From assembly GCF_036898825.1 (NCBI RefSeq), contig NZ_JARUND010000001.1:4712001-4776000 (forward strand): a stretch of DNA of 64,000 bases. The letters run 5' to 3'. Under the pieces are notes generated by a model, which was given only the letters and a program-made list of their open reading frames with translations, was not told the origin of the DNA and did not search any database. Position 1 is the first letter of the stretch; every line of letters starts with the position of its first letter. The stretch is from Streptomyces sp. B21-083 (GTDB lineage Bacteria; Actinomycetota; Actinomycetes; Streptomycetales; Streptomycetaceae). Of this stretch, positions 30,283 through 64,000 are shown in pieces. The translations under genes and the position numbers were made by a program.

Positions 30283-30370
30283 GGAGGATTCGCCTAGTGG
30301 CCTAGGGCGCACGCTTGGAAAGCGTGTTGGGGGCAACCCCTCACGAGTTCGAATCTCGTATCCTCCGCCA
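30283..30370 (+). tRNA. tRNA-Ser (GGA), integration target
   Basis: Acceptor GGAGGAT/ATCCTCC, G discriminator, encoded CCA. The anticodon stem CACGC/GCGTG holds loop TTGGAAA (GGA), and the long variable arm GTTGGGGGCAACCCC is typical of Ser tRNAs. Its 3' part from the anticodon loop onward is repeated at 44905 and 63755, so it is the attachment site of the islands described below. Confidence 0.97.
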
Positions 30371-30400
30371 GTGCCTCACCGGGCACGATGTCGAAGGGCC
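30315..30400 (+). repeat. att copy 1 (left end of E1, inside tRNA-Ser)
   Basis: This 86-bp sequence starts at the anticodon loop (TTGGAAAG), runs through the tRNA 3' end and continues 30 bases downstream to GAAGGGCC. It is identical to copies at 44905-44990 and 63755-63840. It is the only copy attached to a full tRNA 5' half. Confidence 0.95.
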
Positions 30401-30428
30401 CCGCTGCTTGCAGCGGGGCCCTTCTTCG
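30393..30428 (+). terminator. tRNA-Ser terminator within att copy 1
   Basis: GAAGGGCCCCGCTG pairs with CAGCGGGGCCCTTC around CTTG, followed by TTCG. Copies 2 and 3 carry the same outer stem with a different, still paired, inner stem. Confidence 0.8.
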
Positions 30429-30434
30429 TTGTCC

Positions 30435-30455
30435 GTCTCAGTTTCCGTCTCAGTT
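30435..30455. repeat. Arm-type direct repeats, left end of E1
   Basis: GTCTCAGTT occurs twice separated by TCC (12-bp period), overlapping the integrase stop codon. The same pair layout recurs at 44770, 45025 and 63641, always just inside an att copy. This is typical of integrase arm-binding sites. Confidence 0.65.
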
Positions 30456-31826
30456 CGTTTTCGGGATCTCCCAGAGAGCGTCGCCGACTTGCTGCGCGAC
30501 CTTGCGGAGCATGGTCCCCGTCACGTGCATGTACCGGGCGCGCATCCGAGCCGCTCCCCCGGGCTCCCAACCCATGATCGAGTCGATCACGACGTCAGGG
30601 ACGCCGAGGATCAGGAGGACGGTCGCGGCGGTGTGGCGAGCGTCATGGAGACGGCCGTTCCGGACCCCGGCATCCCGAAGCAGCCGCTTCCAGATGTGGA
30701 AGTCGGTGTTCGGGCTCAGCGCTCCACCGATCGGCGAGGCGAAGACGTACCCCTTGCCCTCCCAGTCGGCACCGGCCGCGATCCGCTCCCGCTCCTGGGC
30801 TTCCTTATGCAGCCGGAGAATCTTGATCAGCGGATCGGGGAGGCCGATGGTTCGCCGTCCGGCCCGAGACTTGGTCGACTTGTGCTCGCGACGCGTCTGC
30901 TCCCGCTTGGGGCAGTAGCCCGCCTTACGGCCGCACGGATTGGTGCCGCAGCCGTGCGCGTACTTGGGGCGGAGCCGGTTCTTGCGGATGCGTGCGTATC
31001 CCGCGTCCAGGTCGACGTCTTCCCAGTGGAGTCCGAGCGCTTCCCCTTGGCGGAGTCCGAGGGCCAGGGCGACGACCCAACGCGCGCTGTTGCGGAGCTT
31101 GGCCGCCTCGACGAGCAGTCGCTGTACCTCCTCGATCGTGTAAGGCTCGATGTCCTCTTCTTCGAGGCGGGGAGCCTTGGCGATCTCTGCCGCGTTCGTG
31201 GTGACGTGCCCGCGTCGGACGGCCTCACCGAGGGCGACCCGGATCGTCCGGTGCGCGTGGTGGGCGGTGCCGGCGGAGCTCCCGGATGCCTGCATTTTCC
31301 CGTAGAAGCGTTCGAGGTGCTCCGGCTCCAGGCGGTCGAGCTTGTGGGCGCCCAGGCCTGGGACGAGGTGAACGCGCACATCGACCTCGTAGCCGTCGTA
31401 CGTGTTCTCGGAGACGTACGGCTTGGCGATGTTCTCGACCCAGTGCTCAAGCCAGGCCTGGAACGTCCAGCTCTGCCCCGGCTTCCTTAGCTTCTTGTCG
31501 TCCCGCGCCCGCTCCATCTCGCGGACGGCCTTGGTCACCTCCGCCTTGGTCTTGCGCTCGATGTGGCGGCGGTCGGGTTTGCCGTCATCACGGACTCCGA
31601 CGGTCACTCGGCCGTGCCACTTGCCGTCCTTGCCGAGGTAGATCGACGAGGCACCGTTGGGCTGACGGGTGCGGTTCTTCTCTGCCGTGTCGTTCCCCCT
31701 CAGGCCGCTTGGGCGGGTCGGTGGCGCAGCTTGGCCACGAAGGTGGGCACGGCATCGGCCGGGACTCGGCGCAGCCGACCGACCATGACCGACTCGATCT
31801 CTCCCGCGAGGACGAGCCGGAAGCAC
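30450..31826 (-). CDS. int: Tyrosine recombinase (AICE integrase)
   Basis: The product is up to 458 residues. It has an SAM-like core-binding domain (FQAWLEHWVENIAKPYVSENTYDGYEVDV) and a catalytic domain with Arg in ALGLRQGEALGL, HDARH, and nucleophile Tyr432 in RYMHVT. A Cys/His-rich insert (CGTNPCGRKAGYCPKREQ) is typical of Streptomyces element integrases. ATG 31826 is the only normal start that keeps the core, but it overlaps xis by 108 bases and adds about 45 odd residues. A non-canonical start near 31700 is possible. The gene ends 80 bases from tRNA-Ser. Confidence 0.94.
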   Translation of the reverse strand: MLPARPRGRDRVGHGRSAAPSPGRCRAHLRGQAAPPTRPSGLRGNDTAEKNRTRQPNGASSIYLGKDGKWHGRVTVGVRDDGKPDRRHIERKTKAEVTKAVREMERARDDKKLRKPGQSWTFQAWLEHWVENIAKPYVSENTYDGYEVDVRVHLVPGLGAHKLDRLEPEHLERFYGKMQASGSSAGTAHHAHRTIRVALGEAVRRGHVTTNAAEIAKAPRLEEEDIEPYTIEEVQRLLVEAAKLRNSARWVVALALGLRQGEALGLHWEDVDLDAGYARIRKNRLRPKYAHGCGTNPCGRKAGYCPKREQTRREHKSTKSRAGRRTIGLPDPLIKILRLHKEAQERERIAAGADWEGKGYVFASPIGGALSPNTDFHIWKRLLRDAGVRNGRLHDARHTAATVLLILGVPDVVIDSIMGWEPGGAARMRARYMHVTGTMLRKVAQQVGDALWEIPKTN

Positions 31827-31933
31827 GTCGTACGGCCGATACGGAGACGTCTGGCCGCCTCCTCGACGGTCAGGAGGGCCAAGGACGGGTCGGAGGATTC
31901 AGGCCGGAGGGTGGTGACTTGGGGCTCAGCCAC
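31700..31933 (-). CDS. xis: Excisionase (helix-turn-helix, Xis)
   Basis: The 77-residue MerR/excisionase-type DNA-binding protein reads LTVEEAARRLRIGRTTCFRLVLAGEIESVMVGRLRRVPADAV. GTG at 31933 follows GGAAGGAG and overlaps the rep stop by eight bases. It bends att arms for excision together with Int, whose frame begins inside this gene. Confidence 0.9.
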   Translation of the reverse strand: MAEPQVTTLRPESSDPSLALLTVEEAARRLRIGRTTCFRLVLAGEIESVMVGRLRRVPADAVPTFVAKLRHRPAQAA

Positions 31934-33383
31934 GGGTGGGCTCTCCTTCCGTTCCGGGGGCGGGTTCGAGGGATTCGGCAAGCCAGGCTTCGGTGTCGGA
32001 CAGGCCGGTTCCGGCGAAGACCCAGTGGGCGAGGACGTACGTCGTGCCCGTCTCGTGTTGCGTTGGCGGGGCGTTGTGTTGGGCGCGGCGCCAGTCGGCA
32101 CGGGCGGTGCGTAGAGCGCCGAGGGTGGTGGAGTAGCGGCGGGACTTGGTGGAGAAGTGGCCGCGGAAGCCGAGCATGTGGGCCCAGGCGCGCAGGCGGA
32201 GGTGTTCGAGGTCCTTGCGTGCGCCGAGGGTCCAGGCGGTGCGGATGAGTCGGCGGGCGTGGTCGCTGATGTCGAGTTGGGCGAGTTCGGCGGCGAACTT
32301 GAGCGGGCGGTCGAGGGCGCCTGTCGCGGCTTCGGCGCCCTTGGTGGCGTACTTGGCGATGTACGCGGCTACTGCGCGTTCGGTGAGTTCCTGGCCGTCG
32401 TTGAAGTCGGCGGAGCGGATGGTGCGTACGTCCAGTTGGCGGCCGAAGGTGAAGGTGTGGGTGCGGCCGTCGATGGTCGGGCCGTCGACGCGGACTTTGG
32501 TTGCAGCCGCTTCGATGGCGTCGGTGAGGAGTTCGGCGGTTGCCCAGGCCGGGGGCGGGGTGTCGCCGCCGGTCGGGCCGTCGATGCGTATGACGGCGTG
32601 GAAGTGGACCGCGCCGCGCTTCTGGTACTCGGCGACCTTGGCGAAGGACACGCGCGCGTGGTCGCGGAAGCATCGCTGTGATAGGCCCGCCCGCTTGGCG
32701 ACCTCGCGGCGCAGGTAGGTGGAGAAGCGGCGCCAGAGCGGTCCGGCGTGAGCGTTCCAGAGGACGGCGGTTTCGTAGTCGTACGTGTCCGGGTTGAGCG
32801 GGGTGCCAAGTGCGTCGTCGTCCTGGTCGTGGCGGGTGCCGCAACGGCAGGGGCGGACGGTTCCGGCCGGGCTGGTGGGGCGGTTGTGGACGGGGCCGAA
32901 GCCGGGTGCGGTGAAAGTGGCGAAGACGCGGGGATGGGCTCCGACCTGTTCCGGGGTGCCCTTGCCGCCGCGCAGGCCGGAGGTGATCAGGTGGAAGGTG
33001 TCGCGGCGGTAGACCTCGGAGCAGGCCGGGCAGCGGGTAGTGCGGCGGTTGTTGCAGCGGACGAGCAGGTTGCCGGCCGGGAGGGCGGCGGAGTCGAGGT
33101 GGTGGAGGACGGGGCCTATCTCGCCGGTTCGGGTGTTCACGTCGTACTCGGTGCGGTGGCCGTCGAGGCGGATCGGGTGCGTGCAGCCGCCGAGGCCGGA
33201 GAGCTGCTGGACGATACCGGGCAGGGTGCCGTGCTGGGCCAGCTTGGCGAGTTCCGGCAGTGGAGGCGTGGTGGTGCGGGTGAAGATGGCGTACTCCTTC
33301 TGGCTGGCTGGCTTGGTCAGGAGAGATGGCCCCGGGATGGCCGGATGCTTGGCCGTGTCATGGCCGCCCCGGGAGTCGGGCAT
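31926..33383 (-). CDS. Replication initiator (RepSA-like, HUH type)
   Basis: The 485-residue product resembles the rolling-circle initiator of pSAM2-type elements. It has the metal-binding His pair in VHFHAVIRIDG, a downstream Tyr in AAYIAKYATKG, and a zinc-like cysteine set (CNNRRTTRCPACSEVYRR and CRCGTRH). AICEs replicate by rolling circle before transfer. It overlaps xis at its 3' end and forms an operon with the spread genes upstream. Confidence 0.93.
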   Translation of the reverse strand: MPDSRGGHDTAKHPAIPGPSLLTKPASQKEYAIFTRTTTPPLPELAKLAQHGTLPGIVQQLSGLGGCTHPIRLDGHRTEYDVNTRTGEIGPVLHHLDSAALPAGNLLVRCNNRRTTRCPACSEVYRRDTFHLITSGLRGGKGTPEQVGAHPRVFATFTAPGFGPVHNRPTSPAGTVRPCRCGTRHDQDDDALGTPLNPDTYDYETAVLWNAHAGPLWRRFSTYLRREVAKRAGLSQRCFRDHARVSFAKVAEYQKRGAVHFHAVIRIDGPTGGDTPPPAWATAELLTDAIEAAATKVRVDGPTIDGRTHTFTFGRQLDVRTIRSADFNDGQELTERAVAAYIAKYATKGAEAATGALDRPLKFAAELAQLDISDHARRLIRTAWTLGARKDLEHLRLRAWAHMLGFRGHFSTKSRRYSTTLGALRTARADWRRAQHNAPPTQHETGTTYVLAHWVFAGTGLSDTEAWLAESLEPAPGTEGEPTRG

Positions 33384-34329: not shown

Positions 34330-34962
34330 TCAGAGTTGGGCGGCGATGGCGTCGGCCATGTGGGCGGGGACGCCGAGGCGGGCGCGGAGAGTGGGGGTGT
34401 CGATGGGTACTCCGGTGCGGGTGTGGTGTTCGGCGGCGACCTTGCGGGCGTGCTGGACCAGGGCGGCCGGGACGGGCGGGACAGATACGGCGGGTTGTTC
34501 GGAAGCCGGGGCCGGTTGGGCAAGTTCGGGCGTGTCCTCCTGGTCCTCGATGTTCTCGATGACCTCGGCGGCGTTGTCGGCGTTGTCGGCTGTCGCCATT
34601 GGTGCGGAGTGTGCGAGGAGTGTTCCGCCGAGGAAGGCGACCGCGGGCCAGCCCGCGACGAGGATGCGCAGCCAGGCCGGCACGTCGGTCATGTCGAGGA
34701 GTCCGGCGGTGGCCACGTTGGCGCCGAGGGACGCGGCGAGTGCGATGACGAACCAGCACCACGCGGCTGCTTTCGTGTGGCCGGACCGTAGTCGACGCCA
34801 GGCGACGACGAGCAGCAGGTCGACCGAGACGGGATATGCCCACGCCTTCCACCCGTCTTGACCGGCCGCCGAGGCGACGTCGTGTAGGTGGGCGAAGGAC
34901 AGTGCGGCGGCGATGAGCGCCTGTACAAGTACCGCGTCGATGCGGGCCAGTTGGGCGCGCAT
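34330..34962 (-). CDS. SpdB-like DUF2637 membrane protein
   Basis: The 210-residue product has four predicted helices in the first 125 residues (VLVQALIAAALSFAHLHDVA, AYPVSVDLLLVVAW, AAAWCWFVIALAASLGANVA, LRILVAGWPAVAFLGGTLLA), the DUF2637 pattern of SpdB spread proteins. A soluble acidic linker and a C-terminal helical segment (GVPIDTPTLRARLGVPAHMADAIAAQL) follow. ATG at 34962 follows GGAAGGAG. Confidence 0.88.
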   Translation of the reverse strand: MRAQLARIDAVLVQALIAAALSFAHLHDVASAAGQDGWKAWAYPVSVDLLLVVAWRRLRSGHTKAAAWCWFVIALAASLGANVATAGLLDMTDVPAWLRILVAGWPAVAFLGGTLLAHSAPMATADNADNAAEVIENIEDQEDTPELAQPAPASEQPAVSVPPVPAALVQHARKVAAEHHTRTGVPIDTPTLRARLGVPAHMADAIAAQL

Positions 34963-35038
34963 GATGTCGCTCCTTCCAGGTTCGGGCATGGGAGGGGTAG
35001 GGAGTCGGCGACGGGGGTTGGGCGGGCGGGGTGGAGAC

Positions 35039-36421
35039 TCAGTCGGTCACCGGGCGCGGCTGGAAAGCCGGGGCCGGTGCTTCCACGACAGCTACGGGCA
35101 CGTAGGGCCGGAAGGGCTTGAGTGTGGGCAGGTCGGGCACCAGGTGGGCCGACTCGCGGCAGATCTCTGCGGCGTCGCTCAGGGAGAGGTACGGGGTGCG
35201 GATGCGGGACCAGCCGCCGGAGGTGTCACCGGCCACGGCGAGGCCGGGGCGTTCGGGAGCGATGGCGCAGGCGGCTCCGACGGCTTCGGGGGCGATGTCG
35301 CCGAGGGCCATTTTGGCGGAGGCTTCGTCGTTGACGCGGTGGCAGACCCGGCCGGTCAACTGGGCCCGGAGCATGGTGGCGCCCTTGCCGAGTTCCGCGC
35401 CGAAGCGCTGCCCGCAGACCTCCAGGTAGATGCCGGCGGCGCGGCCGAGTTGGGCGAGGCGGATGAGCTGGGTGACCATCTCGTCGCGCCGGTCTTCATC
35501 CTTCCGCGTGGCGACGAGGAAGAGTTCGGCCACCTCGTCGACGAACAGCACGATGGGTACGGGGCGTTGTTTCTCGGGCAGGCCCCAGATGTCCGAGGTG
35601 ATCTCCTCGTCCGGGGTGCCGGGTGCGATGCCCTGCCGGGCCTTGATCAGGTCGTATCGGTCTTCCATTTCCTTGATGAGCGCGGGCAGCAGCTCGGCCG
35701 CCTGGTCGGGGTCGGTGGCGAGCGCGGAGAGCCGGGCGGCGAACGGCGCCAGTTCGACACCGCGCTTGCAGTCGATGCCGACCAGGGCGACGGGTTGCCG
35801 GGCGAGTCCGGTGACGAGGTGGCGCAGGTACATGGACTTGCCCGACAGGGTTGCGCCGAGGGTGAGTTGGTGCGGAACGGTCCGGTAGTCGCGTACGAAC
35901 GCGGTCGCGTCCTCCCGTAGCGCCACAGGAACTTTCAGGAGCCCGGTATTGGCGGACGAGGTGCGGGGCATCCGTACCTGCCGCAGTACGTCGAAGCCGA
36001 CGAGCCGCAGTTCGACGACGCCCGGCTTGACGGTCGTGACGTACACGGCGTGAACGCCCCAGGCGTGCCGCAGCCGTTCGGCCGAGGCGGCGACGTCGGC
36101 GGGTTCCTGCCCCGGGGCGAGCCGCAGACGAATCCGCAGCCCGGTCGAGGTGGGCCGGATGATGCCCCGGCGCGGCGGTACGGGCCGGACCTCACGTCGG
36201 GTGGTGGCCTTCACAGCCAGCACCCGCAGCCGGGACGGTGCCACAGTCAGGCCGCATGCCTCCATGACCGAGGTGTACGAGCCGAGCAGCCGGGCCGTGG
36301 CTATCGGCAGGCCGACCGTGGACCAGTACGCCGCCGGGTGCTTGGCCCGGGTGTAGGCGGCCCCGCCGCCGAGCGCGGCGAGAGGACCACCCACTTCCAG
36401 AAGCGTCGTCAGGTCGCTCAT
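35039..36421 (-). CDS. TraSA/FtsK-type DNA translocase
   Basis: The 460-residue FtsK/SpoIIIE ATPase has Walker A GATLSGKS at 189-196, Walker B IVLFVDEVAEL at 290-300 and the RAAGIYLEVCGQRFGAELGKGATMLRAQL region of plasmid translocases. It moves double-stranded DNA between hyphae in Streptomyces conjugation. Start ATG overlaps the preceding stop by four bases. Confidence 0.94.
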   Translation of the reverse strand: MSDLTTLLEVGGPLAALGGGAAYTRAKHPAAYWSTVGLPIATARLLGSYTSVMEACGLTVAPSRLRVLAVKATTRREVRPVPPRRGIIRPTSTGLRIRLRLAPGQEPADVAASAERLRHAWGVHAVYVTTVKPGVVELRLVGFDVLRQVRMPRTSSANTGLLKVPVALREDATAFVRDYRTVPHQLTLGATLSGKSMYLRHLVTGLARQPVALVGIDCKRGVELAPFAARLSALATDPDQAAELLPALIKEMEDRYDLIKARQGIAPGTPDEEITSDIWGLPEKQRPVPIVLFVDEVAELFLVATRKDEDRRDEMVTQLIRLAQLGRAAGIYLEVCGQRFGAELGKGATMLRAQLTGRVCHRVNDEASAKMALGDIAPEAVGAACAIAPERPGLAVAGDTSGGWSRIRTPYLSLSDAAEICRESAHLVPDLPTLKPFRPYVPVAVVEAPAPAFQPRPVTD

Positions 36422-36654
36422 CAGGCGGTGGCCCCTATCGCGACGGGGAACGCGGCCGGGGTGACAGCGGCGGCACGGAACGCGATGCCGTGACGCTGCT
36501 GCCCGTTGAACACGCTCTCCCACGGCCGGGCGACGAGCCCCGGCAGCGAGACGGGCGCCCCGAGGGCGAGCCCCTCGGAAACACCGCCCTCGGGAACGGT
36601 GACCTTGATCAGCGAAGACTCGCCGTCCTGGATGTGGACGACGCCGATCGTCAT
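36421..36654 (-). CDS. Small conserved AICE protein, probable start-codon loss
   Basis: From the first normal start (ATG 36654) the product is 77 residues (VVHIQDGESSLIKVTVPEGG, LPGLVARPWES, RHGIAFRAAAVTP). The frame stays open upstream to 36774 and reads RTIRVETSAATILLTEAPEPK, VRDRQTGEIAKDAV, which looks coding. Upstream of that is a perfectly placed AGGAG, seven bases before a TAG codon at 36775-36777. So the native start appears replaced by TAG, and the visible ATG gives a truncated protein. Its stop overlaps the translocase start. Confidence 0.7.
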   Translation of the reverse strand: MTIGVVHIQDGESSLIKVTVPEGGVSEGLALGAPVSLPGLVARPWESVFNGQQRHGIAFRAAAVTPAAFPVAIGATA

Positions 36655-37755: not shown

Positions 37756-37764
37756 TAGACGAGT
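37756..37764. promoter_or_regulatory. KorSA-type operator between the repressor and NUDIX genes
   Basis: TAGACGAGT is the reverse complement of ACTCGTCTA. It lies 20 bases upstream of the repressor start and 56 bases upstream of the divergent NUDIX gene, so it can control both. Confidence 0.6.
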
Positions 37765-37819
37765 GGGCGAGTGTTGTTGCTACGGTGGAGAGCCTAGCCA
37801 CCTGAGAGGGTCGAGGAAC

Positions 37820-38251
37820 GTGAGCACTGACCGTCCGCACTCCGTGAGCGTTGCCGGAGTCATCGTCGACGACCAGGGCCGCGCTCTCCTGATCCAGCGC
37901 CGCGACAACGGCCGGTGGGAACCCCCCGGCGGCATCCTCGAACGCGAGGAAACCATCCCCGAGGCCCTGCAACGCGAGGTCCTCGAAGAGACCGGCATCA
38001 AGATCACAGTTCCGGCGACCCTCACCGGCGTCTACAAGAACATGACGGGCCTGATCGTCTCGCTGGTCTTCCGCTGCGAGGCCGACAAAGGCACCCCCAC
38101 CACCGGAACCGAGACCCGCGCACTGCGTTGGGCAACCCGTGAAGAAGTCTCCGAGCTTGCCGACGAGGCATACGCGATCCGCGTCCTGGACGCACTCGAC
38201 GCCACCTCCCCGCCGGCCGTCCGCGCCCATGACGGCGTGAAACTCGTCTAG
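37820..38251 (+). CDS. NUDIX hydrolase, Pif-like immunity factor
   Basis: The 143-residue product has a full NUDIX box (GGILEREETIPEALQREVLEETGI). In pSAM2 the NUDIX-motif protein Pif blocks entry of a second copy of the element, and the location next to korSA agrees. The substrate is unknown. GTG at 37820 follows GAGGAAC. Confidence 0.87.
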   Translation: MSTDRPHSVSVAGVIVDDQGRALLIQRRDNGRWEPPGGILEREETIPEALQREVLEETGIKITVPATLTGVYKNMTGLIVSLVFRCEADKGTPTTGTETRALRWATREEVSELADEAYAIRVLDALDATSPPAVRAHDGVKLV

Positions 38252-39988: not shown

Positions 39989-39999
39989 GAGCCCCCCAG

Positions 40000-53387: not shown

Positions 53388-53409
53388 GGGCCGCGGTGGC
53401 CGCATTCCC

Positions 53410-54713: not shown

Positions 54714-57700
54714 TCAGAGTCTCGTAAGGTCTGCCCCTGCCGCGTGGCGGGCCACGGGGTTGGTCACGGGGTGGCGTGGGTCGGTAGCGCGGTTGATCGC
54801 CGTCTCCACGGCGGCGATCCGGTCGGCGAGTAGCCCGAGGGTGGCCACGGCGCGGGTGAGGGGGTCGTCGTCCGGTCCGCCCAGCGTCCGGGAGCGCACG
54901 TACGCCGCCTTCAACCCGGCCCAGCGAGTCGCCTGTTCGTCTGTCAGTGTGCCGCACAGCTCGGCCAGCTTCAGCAGGTTGGCCTCGGCCCCGGTCGTGA
55001 GGGTCTGGGCCTCGGCCGTGTAGTGGTCGTCGATCAGCGCGGCCAGTTCGGTGTCGTTCATGACCGGCTGGATGCGCTGGGCCATCTTGTTCATGTTGCG
55101 GTAGGAGCCCTGGAGCTGGAAGGGCGGCTCGGTGCGGGTGGCGTCGGACTGGGCGGCCGAGGCGATGTACGCGGCGTTCACCGCCAGAACTGTTGCGCGA
55201 GCCGTCAGCAAGTGCCGCAGTAGGGCCAGGACGCGCTCCAGCTCGGCGGGCGCGTACGGGTGGGTCAGCCGGTCGGCTCGGGCCGCCGTGTCGCCCTCGG
55301 CAAGGCGGATCAGCAGGTCGAGGTCCGTGCGGTCGCGGCCGGCGAGCGGGGCGAGGACCGGGTTGGCCGTCAGCGCGTTCTCGATGAAGCTGAGTCCGAA
55401 GGCGCGCTCCTTGCCGGTGAGGACGTCGCCGAGGTTCCAGACGTCGGCGCGATTGGCGAGCATGTCGGGGACGCGGAAGCGGCTGCCGGACTCGGTGTAG
55501 GGGTTGCCGGCCATGCAGACGGCGAAGCGCTTGCCGCGCAGGTCGTACGAGCGTGGTTCGCCGTCCCGTACTCCCTCGATACGGCGGGTGGCGTCGCACA
55601 GCGGGATGAACTTCTGCAGCAGCTCGGGCGAGGTGTGCTGGATGTCGTCGAGGTAGAGCAGGGTGTTGTTGCCCGCCTCCAGCGCGAAGTTGATCTTCTC
55701 GACCTCCTGGCGGGCGGTCACGTTCGGGGCCTCGGCAGGGTCCAGGGACGTCACCGCGTGCCCGAGCGCCGGGCCGTTGATCTTCACCAGGATCAGGCCG
55801 AGGCGGTCTGCCACGTACTCCATGAGGGTCGTCTTGCCGTAGCCGGGCGGGGAGATGAGCAGGAGCAGGCCGCCGGTGTCGGTGCGCTTGGACTCGCCCG
55901 TGGTGCCGAGTTGCTTGGCGAGGCTGTCGCCGACCAGGGGGAGGTACACCTCGTCGATGAGCTTGCCGCGCACGAACGCCGACATCACGCGCGGCCGGTA
56001 CTCGTCCAGGCGCAGACGGGTGCGCTCGGCGGCCACCAGTGCCGTACGGCGACGCTGGTACGCGCGGTGGGCGGGGACCTCGTGGGAGCAAAACGCCCTT
56101 GTGCGGGCCAGGAATTCGTCGACGCGGACAACGAGGGTACGGCCGCTGATGCGCGGGTGGGTGCCGAGCAGCCCTTCGACGGTCTCGGTGAGCGGCGCGT
56201 CGGACTCGTAGCGGGGCAGGTCGGGGCAGAGCTCGGCGGTCACCGCTTCGGCCAGGTCGCCGGGGGTGGCGTCCGTGCCGGTGGCGGCGGTGTACGACGT
56301 CAGCCATGCCTCGACGAGTTGCCTGCGGGCGGCGAGGTCGTCGAGCGCGGCGAGGTCGTCGTCGTATGCGGAACTGCCCACCGTACGGCGGAACTTGTCG
56401 AGGAGCGTGCGGGTGGCGGCGCTGATGACGAGGCCGTCGGGGCCGGTGGTGAGTTCCTCGAAGAGGTAGGCGGCGACAACGTCCCGGTCGGCTCGCGCGG
56501 TGTGTGCGTCACGCGCGGCGCCCGAGCGGCCCTCGCCGGGGAGCGCGCGGCCCGCGCGTCCGACCGGCGTGCCGTCGGCCGTGGCTGGGCCGGCGGCCAC
56601 GCCGATTCCGCTGCCCCGCTCCTTCTGTCGCACCCCCTCGGCAGCGGCGACGAAGCCCGGCGTCGCGGTGCGCGTCCCGGCCCGGGCGTCGATCGCTTCC
56701 GACAGTTCCCGCTCGAAGTCCGCGATCGCCGGGGTGAGCCCGAAGGTGTCCCGGGCGCGTGCCAGGGATACGGCCCGGCGTGTCCACGCCGCGCGCTCGT
56801 CGGCTGTCGTGCCGTGTGCCCAGAACAGCTGGGCGGCGGCGCGGGCGGCGGGTTCGTGCCGCAGCGGGCCCGCGGTGTCGTGCAGGCGCAGGAGCACCGT
56901 GAGGATCAGGATCGCGTCGTGGTCGTGGATTCCGCGCTCGTGGCTCTCGTCGTACGCCGCCTCCGCCGCCTGCCGCACGAGTGCGGGCAGGTCGGCCTCG
57001 GCCAGGGCCGCCGGGCCGTGTTCGGCCAGCAGGCGGGCGGCGAGGTACTCGGCGCGGTAGACCTCAGGGGACTCCGAGGGCAGCGGACGGTCCCAGTACG
57101 GGCGGGTGGCGGCGAAGTCGGGGTCCGTGACCGGCGAGCGGTAGTCCGTGCCGGTCAGGGCGAAGGCGAGGGTGTCGCCGTGCGGGACCAGGGTCAGGTC
57201 GAGGGGCTGGGTGTTGACCGCGAAGCGATGGGTGCCCAGGCGCAGGGTGCGTCCGTCGTCGGTGTACAGGTCGGTGCGGTCACGCAGAGCGCGCAGGGCC
57301 TCCTGGCGGGCGGACCTGAGGCGGCCGTCCAGTTCCTCCGCCCTGACCTGGTCACCGAGTTCACGCAGGTCGCCGATGATACGGCGGACCTTGGCGGGCA
57401 TCGGGTCGCCAATGAAGTACGTGGCGACGGCGTCCGCGTCGGCCAGTGTGGCGGCCCGGCGGGTGACCGTGGCCAGGACGCGGGTCGCCGAGTCTGCGAG
57501 GCGTTCCGCGCGGCGGGCGCGGGCGTCGGCGAGGGTCTGCTTGCGGGCGGAGAACGCCTCCTGTACCTCGTCACGCTTGTCGGCGAGCTCGCGGAGGAAG
57601 TCGTCGAACTCCGCGAACCGGGACTCCAGGTTCTCCAATTGGACCAGCACACGGGCGAGTTGGTCATCGCACGCCTCGGGGCTGTTCGCGGCCGCGAGCG

Positions 57701-59792
57701 CACCGGTGACCGTCTGCCCGAGCAGCGCGAACTCGGCGGCGAAACCGGCGCGTCCCTCGCGGTCGAGGAGTGTGCGGCGGCGGCCGTCCAGGGTGGCGCG
57801 GGCGCGGTTGACGCCGCCGAGGACTTCGGCGACGCGCGCCAGGATGGACGTACGGACGGTGGCGTCGCCGATGTCGAGTCCGGCGACGACCTCGGTGACC
57901 GTGCGCAGACCGTCGGCGAGTTCGTCGAGTCGGGCGGTGACGGACGCGGCTTCGGCGACGGTGGCGATCGCCTCGGCGTCCGTGACGAGTTGCTCGATGT
58001 CGGCCTGGTGGCCGGCGAAGGCGTCCTCACGGGCGAGGTGGGCGACCGCGCGCCGGCCGAAGGCGACGAGGTCGGCCTCGACATCGGCGGCGAGGTCGTC
58101 GAGGCGGGCGTCGTCGCCGTACCGCATGTCCTTGAGGGTGAGCAAGTGGCCCTGGGCGCGGTGGAGTTCGGTCAGGCCGGTGACCCAGGCGGCGGCGCTG
58201 CGCGGGGCCGCGCCGCGCAGCCGTCGTACGACCGTGGCGACGCGCGCCGCAGCGTCGGCGAGCGCGTCGGCAGCCCGGCGGGTAAGGGCCTGGACGGTTT
58301 CGAACTCGGCCAGCACCTGCTCGGCCGTCGTGCGCACCTGCTCCAACGGGCCCAGCAGATCGCCGAGTTCGGGCTCGCCCAGCCAATGGTGGGAGTCGGC
58401 GGCCCTAACGCACGCGGCGGCCAGCGCCTCGTAGACCTCGTTCGTCGGGGTCGTCTCGACCACAGCACGCGTGATGGACAGGCAGTCGGAGATGCCGCGC
58501 ACGAGGTCGGCGTTGCCGATACGGGTCAGCGGGCCGGTGCCGACCGGCTGGGAGGCGGCGTGGACGTCGGAGAAGTACGGGGAGTTCCACCGCTGGACGG
58601 GGTGCACACGCTGCGCTTCGTGACTGTCGGCACGCAGCACGACAAAGGAGCCGTCGTCGAGCAGCGCCCAGCCGTGGCAGGAGAGCGGGGTGACGACCTC
58701 CTTGCGGATCATGTTGTAGGGCAGCAGGAGGCTGCGGCCTTCCACGCGCGCGTGGAAGGCGAACAGGACGTCCTCACCGTTCGGGGAGCGCACCTCCCGC
58801 TCGAACTCCAGGTCCGCCGTGTCGATGCCGTCGAACGTCTTGTGGGTGCCCGTGGTCAGGCAGTAACCGCCGGGAAAGACGATGCCCTGGTCCTCGGGCA
58901 GACGGCGGCAGGCCCGGCCGATGCCGTCGAGACGGACGACCGTCCTGGTGAGGGTGTTGAACACCAGGTAGCGGCGGACGTCCTCGTTGTACGGAAGGAC
59001 GTCCAGAAGGATCAGAGCGCCCACGCGCGCGTACGCGATGTCCGCGTCCGCGAGGGACTGCAGCGGCTCGTCGACGGGCTCGGCGTAAATGCCCTCACCC
59101 GTCTCGGTGTTGTCCTCCACCTTGACCGTGAGCGTCCCTCCGAGCGTGTCGACGAAGACCTCGCCCTCGATGGAGACGTGCGGGTGGCGGCCCAGGACGT
59201 GGTTCTCGCGGGTCGCCCCGGTCCACTCGAAGTCGTGGGAGGGAGGGAATGCGTTGAGATGCCCGCCGCGGTCTGCCCCCGCCTCCAGGAAGGCGGCCTG
59301 CCCGTCGTCGGTCAGTGCCCAGTGCAGGACGCGGAGATCGCCAGCCTTCTCGCCGGTCTGGAAGACGGCCAGCAACTTGCCGTCCGTACGGCGCAGTTGA
59401 AGGAGATGTGCCTGCCGGTAGTAGCGGTAGAGGGCTGCGAACTCACGGACGAAGGCAGGATCATCGAGCAGGCCGGGCACGGCGTCGTCGGGCAGCCTGT
59501 TCAGGTCGCGGTCGTGCAGCGCGAAGACGTCGCCGACGGTCGTCTCGGGCCCCCGCCCGAGGAAGACGTTGTGGCCGAAGAGCAGGACGTCGCCGACGGC
59601 GACGATGTCGCGGGGCACGCAGGTGTGCTCGGTGCGCAGCCGCTCGGTGCCGACGAGTTCGAGCCGTGTGGAACCGAACTCCTCGGTGCGGCGGGTGTTC
59701 AACGCCTCCGCGCGGCGGGCGAGTTCGGCGGCCTGCGCGGTCAGGCGGTCGCGCAGTACTTCGTACGTGCCGGTGTCCAGGCCGGTGGTCAT
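54714..59792 (-). CDS. Giant AAA ATPase of the DUF3686 ('DNA repair ATPase') type
   Basis: The 1692-residue product has a DUF3686-like N-terminal domain of mixed beta structure (about 1-450). Long helical and coiled-coil regions follow (about 470-900), then a middle domain, then one AAA module. Walker A SPPGYGKTTLM is near 1315 and Walker B LLYLDDIQH near 1380. Comparative genomics has linked this family with flotillin/YqiJ and with Ter/Psp membrane-stress systems. It is downstream of the flotillin gene with a hairpin in the 77-bp gap. Called a DNA repair ATPase in databases without direct proof. Confidence 0.9.
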   Translation of the reverse strand: MTTGLDTGTYEVLRDRLTAQAAELARRAEALNTRRTEEFGSTRLELVGTERLRTEHTCVPRDIVAVGDVLLFGHNVFLGRGPETTVGDVFALHDRDLNRLPDDAVPGLLDDPAFVREFAALYRYYRQAHLLQLRRTDGKLLAVFQTGEKAGDLRVLHWALTDDGQAAFLEAGADRGGHLNAFPPSHDFEWTGATRENHVLGRHPHVSIEGEVFVDTLGGTLTVKVEDNTETGEGIYAEPVDEPLQSLADADIAYARVGALILLDVLPYNEDVRRYLVFNTLTRTVVRLDGIGRACRRLPEDQGIVFPGGYCLTTGTHKTFDGIDTADLEFEREVRSPNGEDVLFAFHARVEGRSLLLPYNMIRKEVVTPLSCHGWALLDDGSFVVLRADSHEAQRVHPVQRWNSPYFSDVHAASQPVGTGPLTRIGNADLVRGISDCLSITRAVVETTPTNEVYEALAAACVRAADSHHWLGEPELGDLLGPLEQVRTTAEQVLAEFETVQALTRRAADALADAAARVATVVRRLRGAAPRSAAAWVTGLTELHRAQGHLLTLKDMRYGDDARLDDLAADVEADLVAFGRRAVAHLAREDAFAGHQADIEQLVTDAEAIATVAEAASVTARLDELADGLRTVTEVVAGLDIGDATVRTSILARVAEVLGGVNRARATLDGRRRTLLDREGRAGFAAEFALLGQTVTGALAAANSPEACDDQLARVLVQLENLESRFAEFDDFLRELADKRDEVQEAFSARKQTLADARARRAERLADSATRVLATVTRRAATLADADAVATYFIGDPMPAKVRRIIGDLRELGDQVRAEELDGRLRSARQEALRALRDRTDLYTDDGRTLRLGTHRFAVNTQPLDLTLVPHGDTLAFALTGTDYRSPVTDPDFAATRPYWDRPLPSESPEVYRAEYLAARLLAEHGPAALAEADLPALVRQAAEAAYDESHERGIHDHDAILILTVLLRLHDTAGPLRHEPAARAAAQLFWAHGTTADERAAWTRRAVSLARARDTFGLTPAIADFERELSEAIDARAGTRTATPGFVAAAEGVRQKERGSGIGVAAGPATADGTPVGRAGRALPGEGRSGAARDAHTARADRDVVAAYLFEELTTGPDGLVISAATRTLLDKFRRTVGSSAYDDDLAALDDLAARRQLVEAWLTSYTAATGTDATPGDLAEAVTAELCPDLPRYESDAPLTETVEGLLGTHPRISGRTLVVRVDEFLARTRAFCSHEVPAHRAYQRRRTALVAAERTRLRLDEYRPRVMSAFVRGKLIDEVYLPLVGDSLAKQLGTTGESKRTDTGGLLLLISPPGYGKTTLMEYVADRLGLILVKINGPALGHAVTSLDPAEAPNVTARQEVEKINFALEAGNNTLLYLDDIQHTSPELLQKFIPLCDATRRIEGVRDGEPRSYDLRGKRFAVCMAGNPYTESGSRFRVPDMLANRADVWNLGDVLTGKERAFGLSFIENALTANPVLAPLAGRDRTDLDLLIRLAEGDTAARADRLTHPYAPAELERVLALLRHLLTARATVLAVNAAYIASAAQSDATRTEPPFQLQGSYRNMNKMAQRIQPVMNDTELAALIDDHYTAEAQTLTTGAEANLLKLAELCGTLTDEQATRWAGLKAAYVRSRTLGGPDDDPLTRAVATLGLLADRIAAVETAINRATDPRHPVTNPVARHAAGADLTRL

Positions 59793-59820
59793 GGGGTCCC
59801 TCTCGGAGAGTCGGAAAAAG

Positions 59821-59862
59821 CGGTCCGGAGCTGCCGTCCCCTGTGCGGCAGCTCCGGGACCG
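59821..59862 (-). terminator. Large hairpin between flotillin and AAA genes
   Basis: CGGTCCGGAGCTGCCG pairs with CGGCAGCTCCGGGACCG (one bulge) around nine bases, inside the 77-bp gap. No T tract follows. It may attenuate transcription into the AAA gene or stabilise the flotillin mRNA end. Confidence 0.6.
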
Positions 59863-59869
59863 CGGCCTG

Positions 59870-61903
59870 TCAGACCTTGGCGCTGCCGTTCAGGGCCGCG
59901 AGCGAGGTGTCGGCGACACCCAGTTCGCCGGCCTTGCCGAGCAGCTGTTCCAGAGCGCCGGAATCGGCTCCGCCCGTCTTCATCAGCTTCATCAACAGCG
60001 CGGAGACGGTCAGGTTCTGCACATCGGCCGTGGAGACCGAGCCGAGGACGCGGCTGAGGTCGTCGGTGAAGCTCGACGAGCCGTTCAGCCAGGGCCCCGC
60101 GAGGGCCTGTGCCGTCTCGGAGTGCTGGACGAACCCGTCGACGCTCTTGCCGAGCGCGATCGAGTTGACGAGCCGGTCGAAGAAGACGGACTCCCCGCCG
60201 ACGATGTTGATGTCGGCGTTCTCCAGTCCCGTGGCGAGGACCGTGGCCTGCGCCTCGGCGACGTGCTTCTGCATGTCGAGCCCGGCGAGCCGGATCTCCT
60301 TCTCCGCCTCCAACCGCAGCCGGTACTCCTCGTGGCCTCGGGACGCCTCGTCCAGGACGGCCATCGCCGCCGCCTTCTCGGTCAGACCGGCCGCCTCCGC
60401 CTTGAGCTTCCCGCCGATGCCCTCGGCCTCCGCGAGCGCCCTCGCCCTGGTGCCTTCCGCCTCGGCCCGCATCCGCGCCTCGGTGGCCGCGGCCTCCGCG
60501 CGGCCGGCCTTCTCGGTCACCTCGGCCTCCTTGTCACGGACCTGTACAGCGGCCAGCCCCTGGGCGGCGGCCTCCGCCTGCACACCCTCGGCGAGCCGCA
60601 GCTTGGCCTGCGCGTCGAGGTCCGCCGACTTCAACCGGGCTTCGGCGAAGGTGATTTCCTCGGCGGCGCGGTGCACGGCGGCCTGCTCGGCGGCCTCCGC
60701 GGCCTTGATGTCCTTGACGAGCTGCTCCTGTGCCTCGGCCTCGGCGAGGATGACGACGGTCTGCCGCTGCCGCTCCGCCTCCTCCACCGCGCGCAGCTTC
60801 TTGATGGACTCCTCCTGCTCGGCGACCGTGCGGTCCACCGCCACCCGCTCCCGGACGACCTCGGCGATCTCCCGCTTCTCCGCCTCTATCTCCTTCGAGG
60901 CGGAGATCCGGGTCAGCTCGGTCTCCCGCTCGCGTGCGATGACTTCGAGGAGGCGGTCCTTCTCGATGCGCTCGTTCTCGATGGCGATCACCCGCTCGCG
61001 GTTCTTCTGCGCGACGGCGACCTCCCGGGCCTGGTTCTCCCGCTGAATGCCGAGCTGTTCCTCGGTCTTCAGGAAAGCGCCCTGCGAGCGAAGCCGCTCC
61101 TCCTCCACCACCCGCGCCGTCTCGGCCTCCTCACGGGCCCGCACCGTGTCGATCTCCCGCCGCTGCTTGATCTCGGCGTCGGCCTGCCGGCGCTCCAGCT
61201 CCAGGATGGCCTCACGGGCGTCGACGTTCTGCCGGGTGATCTCCTTCTCCTCGGTGCGCTGCGCCTCGTTGGTGCGCACGTGCTCGATCGCCGTCAGCTC
61301 GGTGATCTTGCGGATGCCCTGGGCGTCCAGGACGTTCGCCGGGTCGAGCTGGGTCAGCGGCGTCTGCTCCAGGTAGTCGATCGCCGCGTCCTCCAGGTGG
61401 TAACCGTTCAGGTCGACGCCGATGACCTCGATGATCCGGTACCGCAACTCCTCACGCTTGGTGTACAGGTCGGTGAAGTCCAACTGCTTGCCGACGGTCT
61501 TCAGCGCCTCGGAGAACTTCGCGTGGAACAGCTCCTGCAGCGTGTTCCGGTCGCTGGCCCGTGCGGTGCCGACGGCCTGGGCGACCTTGATGACGTCCTC
61601 GGCGTTCTTGCTGACCTTCACGAAGAACGAGATCCGGATGTCGGCGCGGATGTTGTCCTGGCAGATCAGCCCGTCCTTGCCGGCCCGGGTGATCTCGATG
61701 GTCTTCACCGAGATGTCCATCACCTCGGCCTTGTGCAGCACCGGCAGCACGACCTGCCCGGTGAAGGTCACATCGACCTTCCGCAGCTTGGAGACGATCA
61801 GCGCCTTGCCCTGTTCCACCTTGCGGAACAGCAGGGAGACGACGAGTACGGCGAGCAGGCAGACGGCTACGAGCGCGCCGATGCCCACGATCATGGCAGT
61901 CAT
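59870..61903 (-). CDS. Flotillin / SPFH-domain protein (YqiK type)
   Basis: The 677-residue product has one N-terminal membrane helix (IVGIGALVAVCLLAVLVVSLLF) and an SPFH domain to about residue 200 (GQVVLPVLHKAEVMDISVKTIEI, CQDNIRADIRISFFVKV). A very long Glu/Ala/Arg coiled coil follows, then a C-terminal domain (ENADINIVGGESVFFDRLVNSIALGKSVDGF). Flotillins build membrane scaffolds. YqiK-type members are encoded with YqiJ, as here. ATG start. Confidence 0.94.
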   Translation of the reverse strand: MTAMIVGIGALVAVCLLAVLVVSLLFRKVEQGKALIVSKLRKVDVTFTGQVVLPVLHKAEVMDISVKTIEITRAGKDGLICQDNIRADIRISFFVKVSKNAEDVIKVAQAVGTARASDRNTLQELFHAKFSEALKTVGKQLDFTDLYTKREELRYRIIEVIGVDLNGYHLEDAAIDYLEQTPLTQLDPANVLDAQGIRKITELTAIEHVRTNEAQRTEEKEITRQNVDAREAILELERRQADAEIKQRREIDTVRAREEAETARVVEEERLRSQGAFLKTEEQLGIQRENQAREVAVAQKNRERVIAIENERIEKDRLLEVIARERETELTRISASKEIEAEKREIAEVVRERVAVDRTVAEQEESIKKLRAVEEAERQRQTVVILAEAEAQEQLVKDIKAAEAAEQAAVHRAAEEITFAEARLKSADLDAQAKLRLAEGVQAEAAAQGLAAVQVRDKEAEVTEKAGRAEAAATEARMRAEAEGTRARALAEAEGIGGKLKAEAAGLTEKAAAMAVLDEASRGHEEYRLRLEAEKEIRLAGLDMQKHVAEAQATVLATGLENADINIVGGESVFFDRLVNSIALGKSVDGFVQHSETAQALAGPWLNGSSSFTDDLSRVLGSVSTADVQNLTVSALLMKLMKTGGADSGALEQLLGKAGELGVADTSLAALNGSAKV

Positions 61904-61979
61904 GGCATACGTCCTTCAGGCGTAAGGGAGTTGAGCGTGAAGAGGAGAGGCCGGAGGTGAGATCCCCCGGCAGCGCGGC

Positions 61980-62471
61980 TCAGGCGGCGTGGTCCCGGGA
62001 AGGGAGCGCGACGTCGCGCGGCACGCCTCCGTAGGGATCACGGCTGCGGGCATGCGGCAGCGCGGCGGTGACGCCCATGCGAGCCTCGCTCAGCACGGGC
62101 GGTCCGGGTTCGTCCGGGAAGAGGCGGTGCAACGGCCGTACGATTCTGCAGGTCACAGCCCGGGCGACGAACAACGCCCCCACGGGCACGACCAGACGCA
62201 GCACCCCGGCGACCAGTGCCGGGGGCGCGAACGCGGCCAGTACAACGGCTGCTCCGACGCTCAGGGACCAGGCAAGCACCGTCATCAGCGAGAAGGCGAC
62301 CGTCACAGGCACCCCGCTCATACGCCACGCCCGCAGGTCCACGTCCGTGTCGAAACTGCCGACGCCGACGACGCCCACGGCGGCCAGGAGCCAGAAGCAG
62401 ACGACCACGACGAGGGCCGCGGTCAGCAGAATCGTGGGCAGGCCCGTGGCCGCTGCCAAAAATGTCCGCAT
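61980..62471 (-). CDS. YqiJ-like membrane protein
   Basis: The 163-residue product begins with a helix and a short acidic segment (LTAALVVVVCFWLLAAVGVVGVGSFDTDVDLRAW). Two more hydrophobic segments follow (VTVAFSLMTVLAWSLSVGAAVVLAAF, VAGVLRLVVPVGALFVARAVT). This matches the N-terminal membrane part of YqiJ/DUF1449; the usual OB-fold is short or lost (about 45 residues remain). It is first in the minus-strand YqiJ-flotillin-AAA unit. Confidence 0.7.
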   Translation of the reverse strand: MRTFLAAATGLPTILLTAALVVVVCFWLLAAVGVVGVGSFDTDVDLRAWRMSGVPVTVAFSLMTVLAWSLSVGAAVVLAAFAPPALVAGVLRLVVPVGALFVARAVTCRIVRPLHRLFPDEPGPPVLSEARMGVTAALPHARSRDPYGGVPRDVALPSRDHAA

Positions 62472-62914
62472 CTCCCGGTCCCCCCTTCCGCCCACGGCGC
62501 GCATCAGCCGGTCCGGCGGCACACGACCCCTGCTGCCCCTTGCGGACACATGCCGATGCTCGGCAATGAAACCAACGGCCGTGGCCCCCTCGGTCAATGC
62601 TGCCAGGCCGAGTCCCGCCTACGCATTGCCGGTTCCCGGCAGTCTTTCCTACGGCCTGCATGCCGGTGACCCTCAACATCCGCTCACCACACACTCCGGT
62701 GCCAACGGCAGCCGGGTGGCCACTTACCGCACTCGCCCCGGCGGCGTCTTCCTGGCGAACCCACGCCGGGACACATGAGGATCACGGAAGTACATGTCCC
62801 CCACCGGCCGACGGGGCGAGCCGGCGTCTTTGCTCCAACAGCGGCACCAACAGCCATACTTGGCCATGCGGGGACCATCCCCCGACGACTCGATACGGGG
62901 GAGGCGGTAATCCG
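62472..62914. promoter_or_regulatory. Divergent regulatory gap with two TGCC-N7-GGCA dyads
   Basis: This 443-bp gap separates the YqiJ-flotillin-AAA unit (minus) from terD (plus) and has no gene. It contains TGCC-GATGCTC-GGCA at 62551-62565 and TGCC-GGTTCCC-GGCA at 62627-62641, both in the CATTGCCG context shared with the PucR-gene sites. Confidence 0.6.
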
Positions 62915-63448
62915 GTGAGCAGCGACAGCCTGGCAGTGGGGAAGGCCGAGGTACGGCTCAAGTGGGACCCGAGTCCCTGGGATCAGCCACCTCGTCATCT
63001 CGACATCATCGCCACCACTTACTCGGCGGACGCCCCCTACGGGCGACCGGTGTACGTCGTCCACTTCGACAGCCGCTCACCGGACGGCACCATCAACATG
63101 AGTCGGCACAGCCAGACCGGTCAGGGGTTCGGCTATGTCGAAGTGATGACGCTGGAACTTGATCGCCTCGCGTCCTCCTTCGCGCGGGTGGTTGTGGGCG
63201 TGGCCATCCACCAGAACAGCGGCCCCATGACCTTCGGTGACATGTCGAATGCCGGAGTGCTGGTCGTCGAGGGATACCAGGATCTGCTGAAGGACGACTT
63301 CGCGCAGGTCGCCGGATCCACGGCCACAACCGTCGCGGAGTTCACTCGCGGCACCTCCGGAGCGTGGGAGTTTCACGAGATGGTCCGAGGGTTCGACAGC
63401 GATCCCGTGGTCTTCACCGCGGAGATGGGCAGCGCCCAACCGCGCTGA
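62915..63448 (+). CDS. TerD-family protein
   Basis: The 177-residue TerD-like protein has VRLKWDPSPWDQPPRHLDIIATTYSADAPYGRPVYVVHFDSRSPDGTI at the start and GTSGAWEFHEMVRGFDSDPVVF near the end, including the acidic calcium-binding positions of the family. TerD proteins act in tellurite and envelope stress responses. GTG at 62915 follows GGGGGAGG. It is divergent from, and probably coregulated with, the flotillin module. Confidence 0.9.
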   Translation: MSSDSLAVGKAEVRLKWDPSPWDQPPRHLDIIATTYSADAPYGRPVYVVHFDSRSPDGTINMSRHSQTGQGFGYVEVMTLELDRLASSFARVVVGVAIHQNSGPMTFGDMSNAGVLVVEGYQDLLKDDFAQVAGSTATTVAEFTRGTSGAWEFHEMVRGFDSDPVVFTAEMGSAQPR

Positions 63449-63753
63449 CCGCCGGCAGCACGGAAAACGTACGGCCGATCACGGTGCCGGCTTCCCGAGT
63501 TCTTGGATCCGGAGGAGCAGGCACTCCGTAAGCGTCAGAGTCTCGGCCCTGGCGTTACTCGTCCGACTCGGGCGGTGGTCGTCGGAGCCATTCGGATGCC
63601 CCGAAACCAGCCCGAGCAAGGCAGAATTCTGGGCTCCTTGGTCTCACTTATGGTCTCATTCGCCCCCGTCCGGCGCCGTCCGGAAGCGTCACCACCATCG
63701 CCTCCACCCCAGGTCAGAACACCCCCGTCCCCCACCGAACCCCCAGACGAAGA
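63449..63753. other. Right terminal region of E2
   Basis: No gene was seen. It contains the arm-type repeats at 63641 and a Pro/C-rich stretch up to att copy 3. Confidence 0.5.
63641..63661. repeat. Arm-type direct repeats, right end of E2
   Basis: GTCTCACTT, three bases (ATG), then GTCTCATTC. The 12-bp period and the GTCTCAttc second half match the right end of E1 (44770-44790), at about the same distance (93 bases) from att. Confidence 0.6.
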
Positions 63754-63842
63754 CTTGGAAAGCGTGTTGGGGGCAACCCCTCACGAGTTCGAATCTCGTA
63801 TCCTCCGCCAGTGCCTCACCGGGCACGATGTCGAAGGGCCCC
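63754..63842 (+). repeat. att copy 3 (right end of E2, left end of E3)
   Basis: Identical to att copy 1 over 89 bases (30314-30402). The tRNA 5' half is absent. The hairpin that follows has inner stem CCACC/GGTGG with the outer GAAGGGCC/GGCCCTTC kept. Confidence 0.95.
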
Positions 63843-63864
63843 ACCTCACGGTGGGGCCCTTCTT
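63833..63864 (+). terminator. Hairpin terminator after att copy 3
   Basis: GAAGGGCCCCACC and GGTGGGGCCCTTC pair around four bases, followed by TTCG. It differs from the copy 1 and copy 2 hairpins by paired changes. Confidence 0.75.
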
Positions 63865-63900
63865 CGTTGAGGGGTGCACTCTGGGTTGCAGTTGCCGAGA

Positions 63901-64000
63901 TCAGGCGGCGGGAGGCTGCTGGTCCGGGCGGGGCCAGAGCAGTTCGCCGACCCTGTCGGCCGTGTCCCTGAGGACGCGGTTGGTGAGGTGCTGGTAGCGG
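63901..64000 (-). CDS. C-terminal end of a third-element tyrosine integrase
   Basis: The minus strand reads RYQHLTNRVLRDTADRVGELLW, then PRPDQQPPAA and stop. This is the tyrosine-recombinase C-terminus, with the nucleophile in RYQHLT, and aligns by eye with RYMHVT and VGDALW at the end of the E1 integrase. It ends 58 bases after att copy 3, mirroring int at att copy 1. The gene continues beyond the window, so element E3 starts here. Confidence 0.85.
   Translation of the reverse strand, partial: RYQHLTNRVLRDTADRVGELLWPRPDQQPPAA

Follow-up and report, generated by a model that had tools for sequence, protein, structure and literature searches.

Accretion of mobile elements in a single tRNA gene has been published before. 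In a Streptomyces rhizosphere population, one to three actinomycete integrative and conjugative elements (AICEs) or DAICEs share a tRNA-Arg gene, bounded by identical direct repeats and with an older remnant that lacks traB, and cis mobilisation of remnants was proposed (PMC9513070). Tandem AICEs in one tRNA gene are also described for Fean5518/Fean5534 (tRNA-Lys) and Sav3708/Sav3728 (tRNA-Arg), and for the former, a Frankia pair, both single and joint excision was reported (PMC3218068). Tandem islands bounded by tDNA repeats occupy ssrA in Dehalococcoides, where 15 islands without an integration module were read as possible cis-mobilizable elements (PMC3146451). Islands beside a tRNA-Ser gene were named as an example hotspot in Streptomyces (PMC11195616). 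In the present study, a stretch of 64,000 nucleotides from Streptomyces sp. B21-083 (contig NZ_JARUND010000001.1, positions 4,712,001 to 4,776,000; the window hereafter) was analysed, in which a tRNA-Ser(GGA) gene is followed by segments bounded by attachment (att) sites, named E1 to E4. Very probably, this array of a soil Streptomyces arose by accretion at tRNA-Ser(GGA), and consists of one intact island and older ones that have been stripped down.

The array is like that of the rhizosphere population in its identical direct repeats, in older remnants without traB and in the cis mobilisation that may be proposed for them, but a different tRNA is used; the passages of that report at hand list toxin/antitoxin as a cargo category, though they contain neither a toxin-antitoxin core nor a decay gradient (PMC9513070). 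Whereas the tandems of PMC3218068 consist of two AICEs, here one AICE is accompanied by three integrase-less or decayed layers. The Dehalococcoides islands combine a serine recombinase with a tmRNA gene, in contrast to the tyrosine integrase and tRNA-Ser found here, and the cargo differs as well (PMC3146451). The Islander survey counted 125 tandems of at least two and 4 of at least three members among 3919 islands, with an integrase demanded of every island (PMC4383910). A full integrase was detected in E1 only, which places the present array outside Islander's strict tandem sense, yet it fits accretion. Since layers such as E2 to E4 go unscored under the integrase rule, they are likely to be undercounted.

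The 86-bp att sequence is present in three exact copies in the window (Table 1), as a preliminary description of this DNA had stated, and identity is maximal over these 86 bp on both sides; a chance origin of such a triplicate would be far excluded. Identity begins within the anticodon loop of the tRNA (TTGGAAA). ARAGORN found one complete tRNA-Ser(GGA), at copy 1, and no tRNA at the other copies, again in agreement with the preliminary description. Extension to the right, which had been suggested there, revealed two further copies beyond the window in the 10.5-Mb genome: copy 4, at 64923, is decayed (~91% identity), and copy 5, at 69301-69400, is both partial and decayed (~85%). It is followed by an ars-like region (LMWPc, ArsR and SBF-family genes). 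The serial insertion into one tRNA-Ser proposed earlier is therefore well supported, for a longer array of five att copies, all in one orientation, that delimit four segments. A strong hairpin abuts each of copies 1 to 4; its stem sequence varies between copies with pairing kept, as expected if each element supplies its own tRNA end and terminator. A 42-bp match (90%) to the tRNA-Ser att region was also noted on the minus strand of the contig, at 5413637-5413678, ~0.67 Mb away.

In the proposed scheme, each attP would carry the 3' half of the tRNA from the anticodon loop onwards plus the trailer, and integration would restore the tRNA while displacing the older att copy and the older islands outward. 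E3 and E4 would be older layers that deletions have worn away, each around a persisting vapBC-like toxin-antitoxin pair. The E1 integrase could excise E1 alone (att1 x att2) or E1 together with E2 (att1 x att3). Accretion itself is supported by the five att copies in the same orientation, by relatives without insertions, and by the decay of att copies and integrases from proximal to distal positions.

Relatives confirm insertion at tRNA-Ser (genomes are denoted by G numbers and loci by L numbers). The ars-like region starts ~1.8 kb past tRNA-Ser in G040, a genome with no additional att copy at this tRNA. In G091, which is among the two nearest of the genomes compared (dnaX 96.5%), tRNA and ars are parted by 6 kb plus an att copy and an AICE of the E1 family. 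A census was made of 56 near-finished genomes (at most 10 contigs; 58 such among 121, minus G053, and minus G100, whose site was unreadable). The comparison with relatives that the preliminary description had called for thus gave no extra att copy beside the tRNA in 27 of the 56, one in 18, two in 10 and three in 1, i.e. at least one in 29/56 and at least two in 11/56; for genomes without extra copies ~8 kb were fetched at the tRNA, but these genomes were also searched whole for att. With a shorter query the counts became 26/18/11/1, the added copies in G079 and G092 being trailer-only. The identity of 25 of the 41 extra copies begins at precisely the same base as here, and no inverted copies were found within the fetched stretches of the census genomes. 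Such stacks are common at tRNA-Ser, and the present array is a further example, although its four extra copies were unmatched in the census. Outside the census, G029 (picked for its many copies) has four extra copies and G245 (picked for an E3 pair) has five under a loose cut; G029, G063, G042 and G024 had been added to the att search by choice. No island-free relative carried three att copies, and elements do continue past position 64000, the two points on which the preliminary description had let its array model depend.

Two gradients fit new arrivals at the tRNA and decay of older ones. Among 19 arrays, a mix of census genomes, this genome and genomes picked for many copies or for E3, the nearest copy was more tRNA-like than the farthest in 14 (sign test p 0.001), and in 13 of 18 (p 0.002) when G092, whose last copy is trailer only, was left out. 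A full-length integrase was present in 16/30 proximal but 1/13 distal segments (p 0.006), and in 8/12 against 1/13 (p 0.004) when arrays only were considered, as scored with a profile derived from E1's own relatives that other recombinase classes could escape. Without G092 the figures were 16/30 against 1/12 (p 0.013) and, for arrays only, 7/11 against 1/12 (p 0.009).

E1 (14.6 kb; GC 65.0%, compared with 72.1% in the left flank) is, as judged by its predicted gene content, a complete pSAM2-like AICE, and it is the youngest layer of the array. Its integrase frame opens 138 bp past the att start, next to the tRNA-borne site. A Rep of the pSAM2 kind is present (NCBIfam RepSA 526 bits, under the equivalog cut-off of 700), as is a single translocase of TraB/FtsK type (NCBIfam TraB 36 bits, far under the equivalog cut-off of 800), and the small HTH_17 ORF that overlaps int is the putative excisionase. 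We take the GntR/UTRA regulator to be KorSA-like and the NUDIX hydrolase to be Pif-like. The HEPN, GmrSD_N/NsnA-like and Mrr-type genes likely form a defence cluster. AICEs of the E1 family occupy the same tRNA in G091, G068 and G007, and form the second layer in G262. The earlier interpretation is thus borne out in part: a complete AICE is seen in E1 alone, E2 has no detected integrase, rep or tra, and E3 is a remnant.

Many att cores are adjoined by a paired repeat of the form CTCA-TT-spacer-CTCA, which may represent arm-type integrase sites. The spacer TCCG was found at both ends of eight elements including E1, all eight with an E1-type integrase or fragments of one (full length in six, broken in G063, truncated in G101). 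Spacers of the type TTGG/CTGG/ATGG/TCGG were found at both ends of seven elements including E2; five of these had no detected integrase, and in the remaining two it lay 4.8 and 8.8 kb from the core. In other elements this pattern detected neither form of repeat at one end or at both, and some of these have an intact integrase, so the repeats are not universal.

E3 is a 1.17-kb remnant that holds the C-terminal scrap of an integrase and a vapBC-like pair. The end of an integrase after att copy 3, seen in the preliminary description, is real, but its stop codon (63901-63903) lies 60 rather than 58 bases away and the open stretch (63904-64086) is no longer than 61 codons, with a match to the E1 integrase C-terminus over 31 residues (48%). 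A full third island running on from the window edge, as pictured there, is ruled out by att copy 4 and the remnant content. E4 (4.4 kb) contains a second vapBC-like pair, a putative membrane protein without Pfam hit, a Band_7 protein and an NfeD protein. Its toxin has a PIN domain (PF01850, 1.5e-05, 26 bits; cut-off 23.6), and a small antitoxin ORF (65521-65769) overlaps the toxin gene, with a CcdA-like match slightly below cut-off; this is the arrangement predicted for a VapBC system. The E3 toxin shares 49% identity with the PIN protein of E4, and D15, E52, D100 and D122 are invariant. NCBIfam gave no match for either toxin or their antitoxins, the E3 toxin had no match among PDB sequences, and only two partial matches to E3 (67-77%) were found in a plasmid collection.

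Pairs of both types are linked to att in other species. The E3-type pair was found in 10 further genomes among 392 (91-94% DNA identity), with att within the 1.5-kb flanks in nine of the ten as against 0/19 more distant copies fetched (p 1e-6); in the tenth, G166, the pair lies between two att copies. For the E4 type, 9/12 near copies (87-91%) were att-linked as against 0/17 distant copies fetched; the exceptions were G110, with the pair 2.4 kb beyond the last att copy, and G323 and G090, without att in the flanks. In a second collection, of which the best 80 of at least 534 loci were taken, att was present in the 4-kb flanks of 10/12 loci with a protein identity of at least 90% (among them L227, linked by trailer sequence only), 2/5 at 85-90%, 2/39 at 80-85% and 0/24 below; the two samples are not independent, G029, G130, G245 and G391 being assemblies already among the E3 carriers.

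Among 11 E3 carriers, vapBC similarity exceeded that of dnaX in 54/55 pairs (means 94.0% and 87.3%), and vapBC identity (92-96%) showed no correlation with that of dnaX (Mantel r 0.16, p 0.21). The same excess was found in 77/78 pairs of 13 E4 carriers, where the two were somewhat correlated (Mantel r 0.40, p 0.05), and in 45/45 pairs of the 10 att-linked ones (Mantel r 0.10, p 0.31). As a control, off-array copies from three genomes, those with dnaX already fetched, were 82.8-84.0% identical among themselves, below dnaX (89.1-90.1%), and vapBC exceeded dnaX in just 4/33 pairs of on- and off-array copies. The two genomes nearest by dnaX (96.5%), G091 and G323, have no E3 pair of the near class; their best matches were 71% over 277 bp and 90% over 442 bp, respectively, the latter with no att in its flanks. 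Together, the att linkage and the dnaX comparison suggest that vapBC-like pairs were passed on horizontally and came to rest beside one and the same tRNA.

In 11/11, 15/16 and 13/13 of the loci tested, both vapBC genes kept an open frame for 85% or more of their length; the 16 come from the second collection (88% or above, with or without att linkage), and four of these loci belong to genomes already counted among the 11. Of 23 E3 carriers, 14 have the right att at a distance of 411-496 nt from the start of vapC, and in nine it was not found by that pattern. On the other side, the distance between the vapC stop and the end of shared sequence varied from 5 nt to at least 900 nt (no figure was obtained for one carrier), and in L225 and L228 the shared stretch continues into the adjoining att. 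This junction pattern is suggestive of repeated island deletion that reached up to, and never into, the toxin gene. Open reading frames, deletions short of vapC and spread across species would be explained by retention through addiction, although sampling by similarity to an intact query favours intact copies, so that this evidence for retention is suggestive and not proof. A HipAB toxin-antitoxin pair helps to retain a tRNA-integrated composite island in Shewanella, where it was tested functionally, in contrast to the pattern evidence from eroded layers considered here (PMC8978831). No paper describing this pattern of toxin-antitoxin remnants at such sites was found among the matches listed, as judged from titles and abstract openings.

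Short att-bounded units elsewhere bear on this question. E3-type pairs are flanked by att within ~1.1-1.4 kb in G029, G274 and strain G-G2, with arm-like repeats on both ends in G029 and G274, and these units, like the high identity of the 11 carriers irrespective of dnaX, could mean that vapBC units travel by themselves as cassettes on which resident AICE integrases act in trans, in an integron-like manner. We regard this as improbable: left junctions were unlike in six aligned E3-type units while the right att lies at a similar distance from vapC in 14 of 23 carriers, which looks like separate deletions of larger elements and not one shared cassette. Toxin-antitoxin cassettes are thought to stabilise large integrons against loss. 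A broader form of the idea, equally doubtful in our view, holds that the tRNA-Ser site is an open-ended cassette stack, in which AICE integrases would add or swap att-bounded units, many of them integrase-less and with their own arm type, and small vapBC units would travel between species in att-bounded form and likewise anchor the stack.

Small att-bounded segments, which were listed for part of the genomes, have other contents as well. Integrase-less ones include PIN-type genes in G049, G052, G058, G082 and G029, plus other genes; three of the PIN proteins were confirmed by Pfam. In G069 (L054), an integrase-less segment flanked by att copies (15169 and 17695 in array coordinates) encodes a 343-aa protein that resembles a second RNA polymerase alpha subunit, and the second att-bounded integrase-less segment of the five-copy array in G029 (L040) encodes what we take to be an undecaprenyl-diphosphate-synthase-like protein and an IS30-like transposase. 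A nearly identical 473-aa ATPase is found in small att-bounded segments of G101 (L036) and G107 (L037), a candidate recurrent island remnant.

Serial insertion was also weighed against the entry of a single composite island with internal att copies. Copies 1 to 3 are identical across 86 bp, which would allow a joint arrival of E1 and E2, and the order in G262 is a different first layer, an E1-family AICE and an E3-type pair. Such an origin is nevertheless unlikely, given that copies 4 and 5 have diverged, that E1-family elements occur without E2 to E4 in G091 and G068, and that distal copies are the more decayed ones in most arrays.

E2 (18.9 kb; GC 69.8%) is bounded by att sites of the resident element and carries no integrase, rep or tra gene among the ORFs scanned (Pfam, and for integrases the profile built from E1-type enzymes). 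Its 677-aa protein (59870-61903) has no Pfam hit and is presumably flotillin-like. The block of this protein and the DUF3686 ATPase (54714-61903) has one match in this genome, inside E2 (E <= 1e-50). The concept of the cis-mobilizable element (CIME) is said to derive from the ICESt1-related elements of S. thermophilus (Pavlovic, 2004). E2 is a CIME-like layer, being an att-bounded segment without recombination or transfer genes beside an intact element, and its ends look recombination-competent. With arm-like repeats at its ends and no integrase, it resembles a recombination substrate minus its enzyme. E1 and E2 may plausibly be inherited and mobilised as one, given identical cores and arm-like repeats at the outer ends.

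The DUF3686 block is widespread in the genus, being present in at least 130 of the 183 genomes scored out of 392, this one included (E <= 1e-50), and the GC content of E2 equals that of the right flank, as might be expected if E2 were ordinary chromosome and not an island. This is very unlikely, because att and arm-like repeats flank E2 on both sides, att was present in 0/14 homologous blocks within the fetched flanks, and G091 has no E2 between tRNA and ars. Moreover, 64 other tRNA-Ser regions (8-kb stretches where the genome had no extra att copies) held no E2 genes passing the cut, save a weak MerR match in G356.

That ordinary recombination produced the att copies by duplicating a piece of the tRNA in tandem is hardly credible, even though all array copies have the same orientation and lie near the tRNA: the gene sets in the intervals are foreign and unrelated to one another, E1 has the content of a complete AICE with its integrase adjoining att, the same AICE family occupies this tRNA in other species, and relatives without extra copies also lack the intervals, as the comparison of G040 and G091 makes clear.

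Some observations weigh against accretion as set out here. Copy 5 is partial and could be the relic of another element. The decay order is tied in 4 of the 19 arrays and reversed in 1 (the same numbers apply without G092). Some att-like matches lie far from the tRNA (e.g. in G104, G110, G080 and G044), so that some copies sit outside arrays. The E3 toxin alone has no significant Pfam hit. Finally, the arm-like repeats of E1 and E2 differ by two bases at one end and four at the other, and the E1 integrase may therefore not act on the ends of E2.

Table 1. Features of the tRNA-Ser(GGA) array of Streptomyces sp. B21-083, in window coordinates.
Feature	Coordinates	Strand	Basis or remark
Complete tRNA-Ser(GGA), integration target	30283..30370	+	ARAGORN; Rfam tRNA
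att copy 1, anticodon loop to tRNA 3' end, plus trailer	30315..30400	+	86-bp exact repeat
att copy 2	44905..44990	+	86-bp exact repeat
att copy 3	63755..63840	+	86-bp exact repeat
E1 right-of-core arm-like repeat GTCTCAGTTTCCGTCTCAGTT	30435..30455	+	
E1 tyrosine integrase (start 31607 or upstream)	30450..31826	-	Pfam PF00589 7.8e-16, PF14659
E1 Xis-like small HTH protein, overlaps int 5' extension, start uncertain	31700..31933	-	Pfam HTH_17 4e-08
E1 RepSA replication initiator	31926..33383	-	Pfam RepSA 1.4e-152
E1 DUF2637 protein	34330..34989	-	Pfam 6.9e-26
E1 TraB-like FtsK/SpoIIIE DNA translocase	35039..36523	-	Pfam PF01580 7.3e-33
E1 GntR/UTRA regulator	36948..37736	-	Pfam
E1 NUDIX hydrolase	37763..38251	+	Pfam NUDIX 2.1e-19
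E1 cargo: HEPN protein, GmrSD_N/NsnA-like protein, Mrr-type endonuclease	39347..42883	-	
E1 left-of-core arm-like repeat GTCTCAGTTTCCGTCTCA	44770..44787	+	
E2 right-of-core arm-like repeat GTCTCAGTTTTGGTCTCAGTT	45025..45045	+	
E2 cargo: MerR, SulP transporter, NhaA, PucR-type regulator, Na/H exchanger, lactonase-like, DUF3686 ATPase (1692 aa), 677-aa protein, TerD	45482..63448		
E2 left-of-core arm-like repeat GTCTCACTTATGGTCTCA	63641..63658	+	
E3 integrase C-terminal scrap	63901..64000 in window	-	open to 64086
E3 vapBC-like pair	64099-64778		beyond window

Outside the array, Rfam marked an extra tRNA at 16258-16329 (53.5 bits), just ahead of tRNA-Gly, which is absent from the ARAGORN list.

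The added value of this array lies in its layered decay and in the spread and survival of the vapBC-like pairs. Less expected was that the two vapBC lineages should lie beside att in many species, be more similar between species than dnaX, and stay intact in nearly every sampled case within islands that are themselves eroded. One tRNA gene can thus be read as a legible record of island arrivals, with their order, their decay and their survivors, and the open vapBC pairs that recur in eroded layers offer a testable case for chromosomal toxin-antitoxin systems as selfish relics that outlive their mobile elements.

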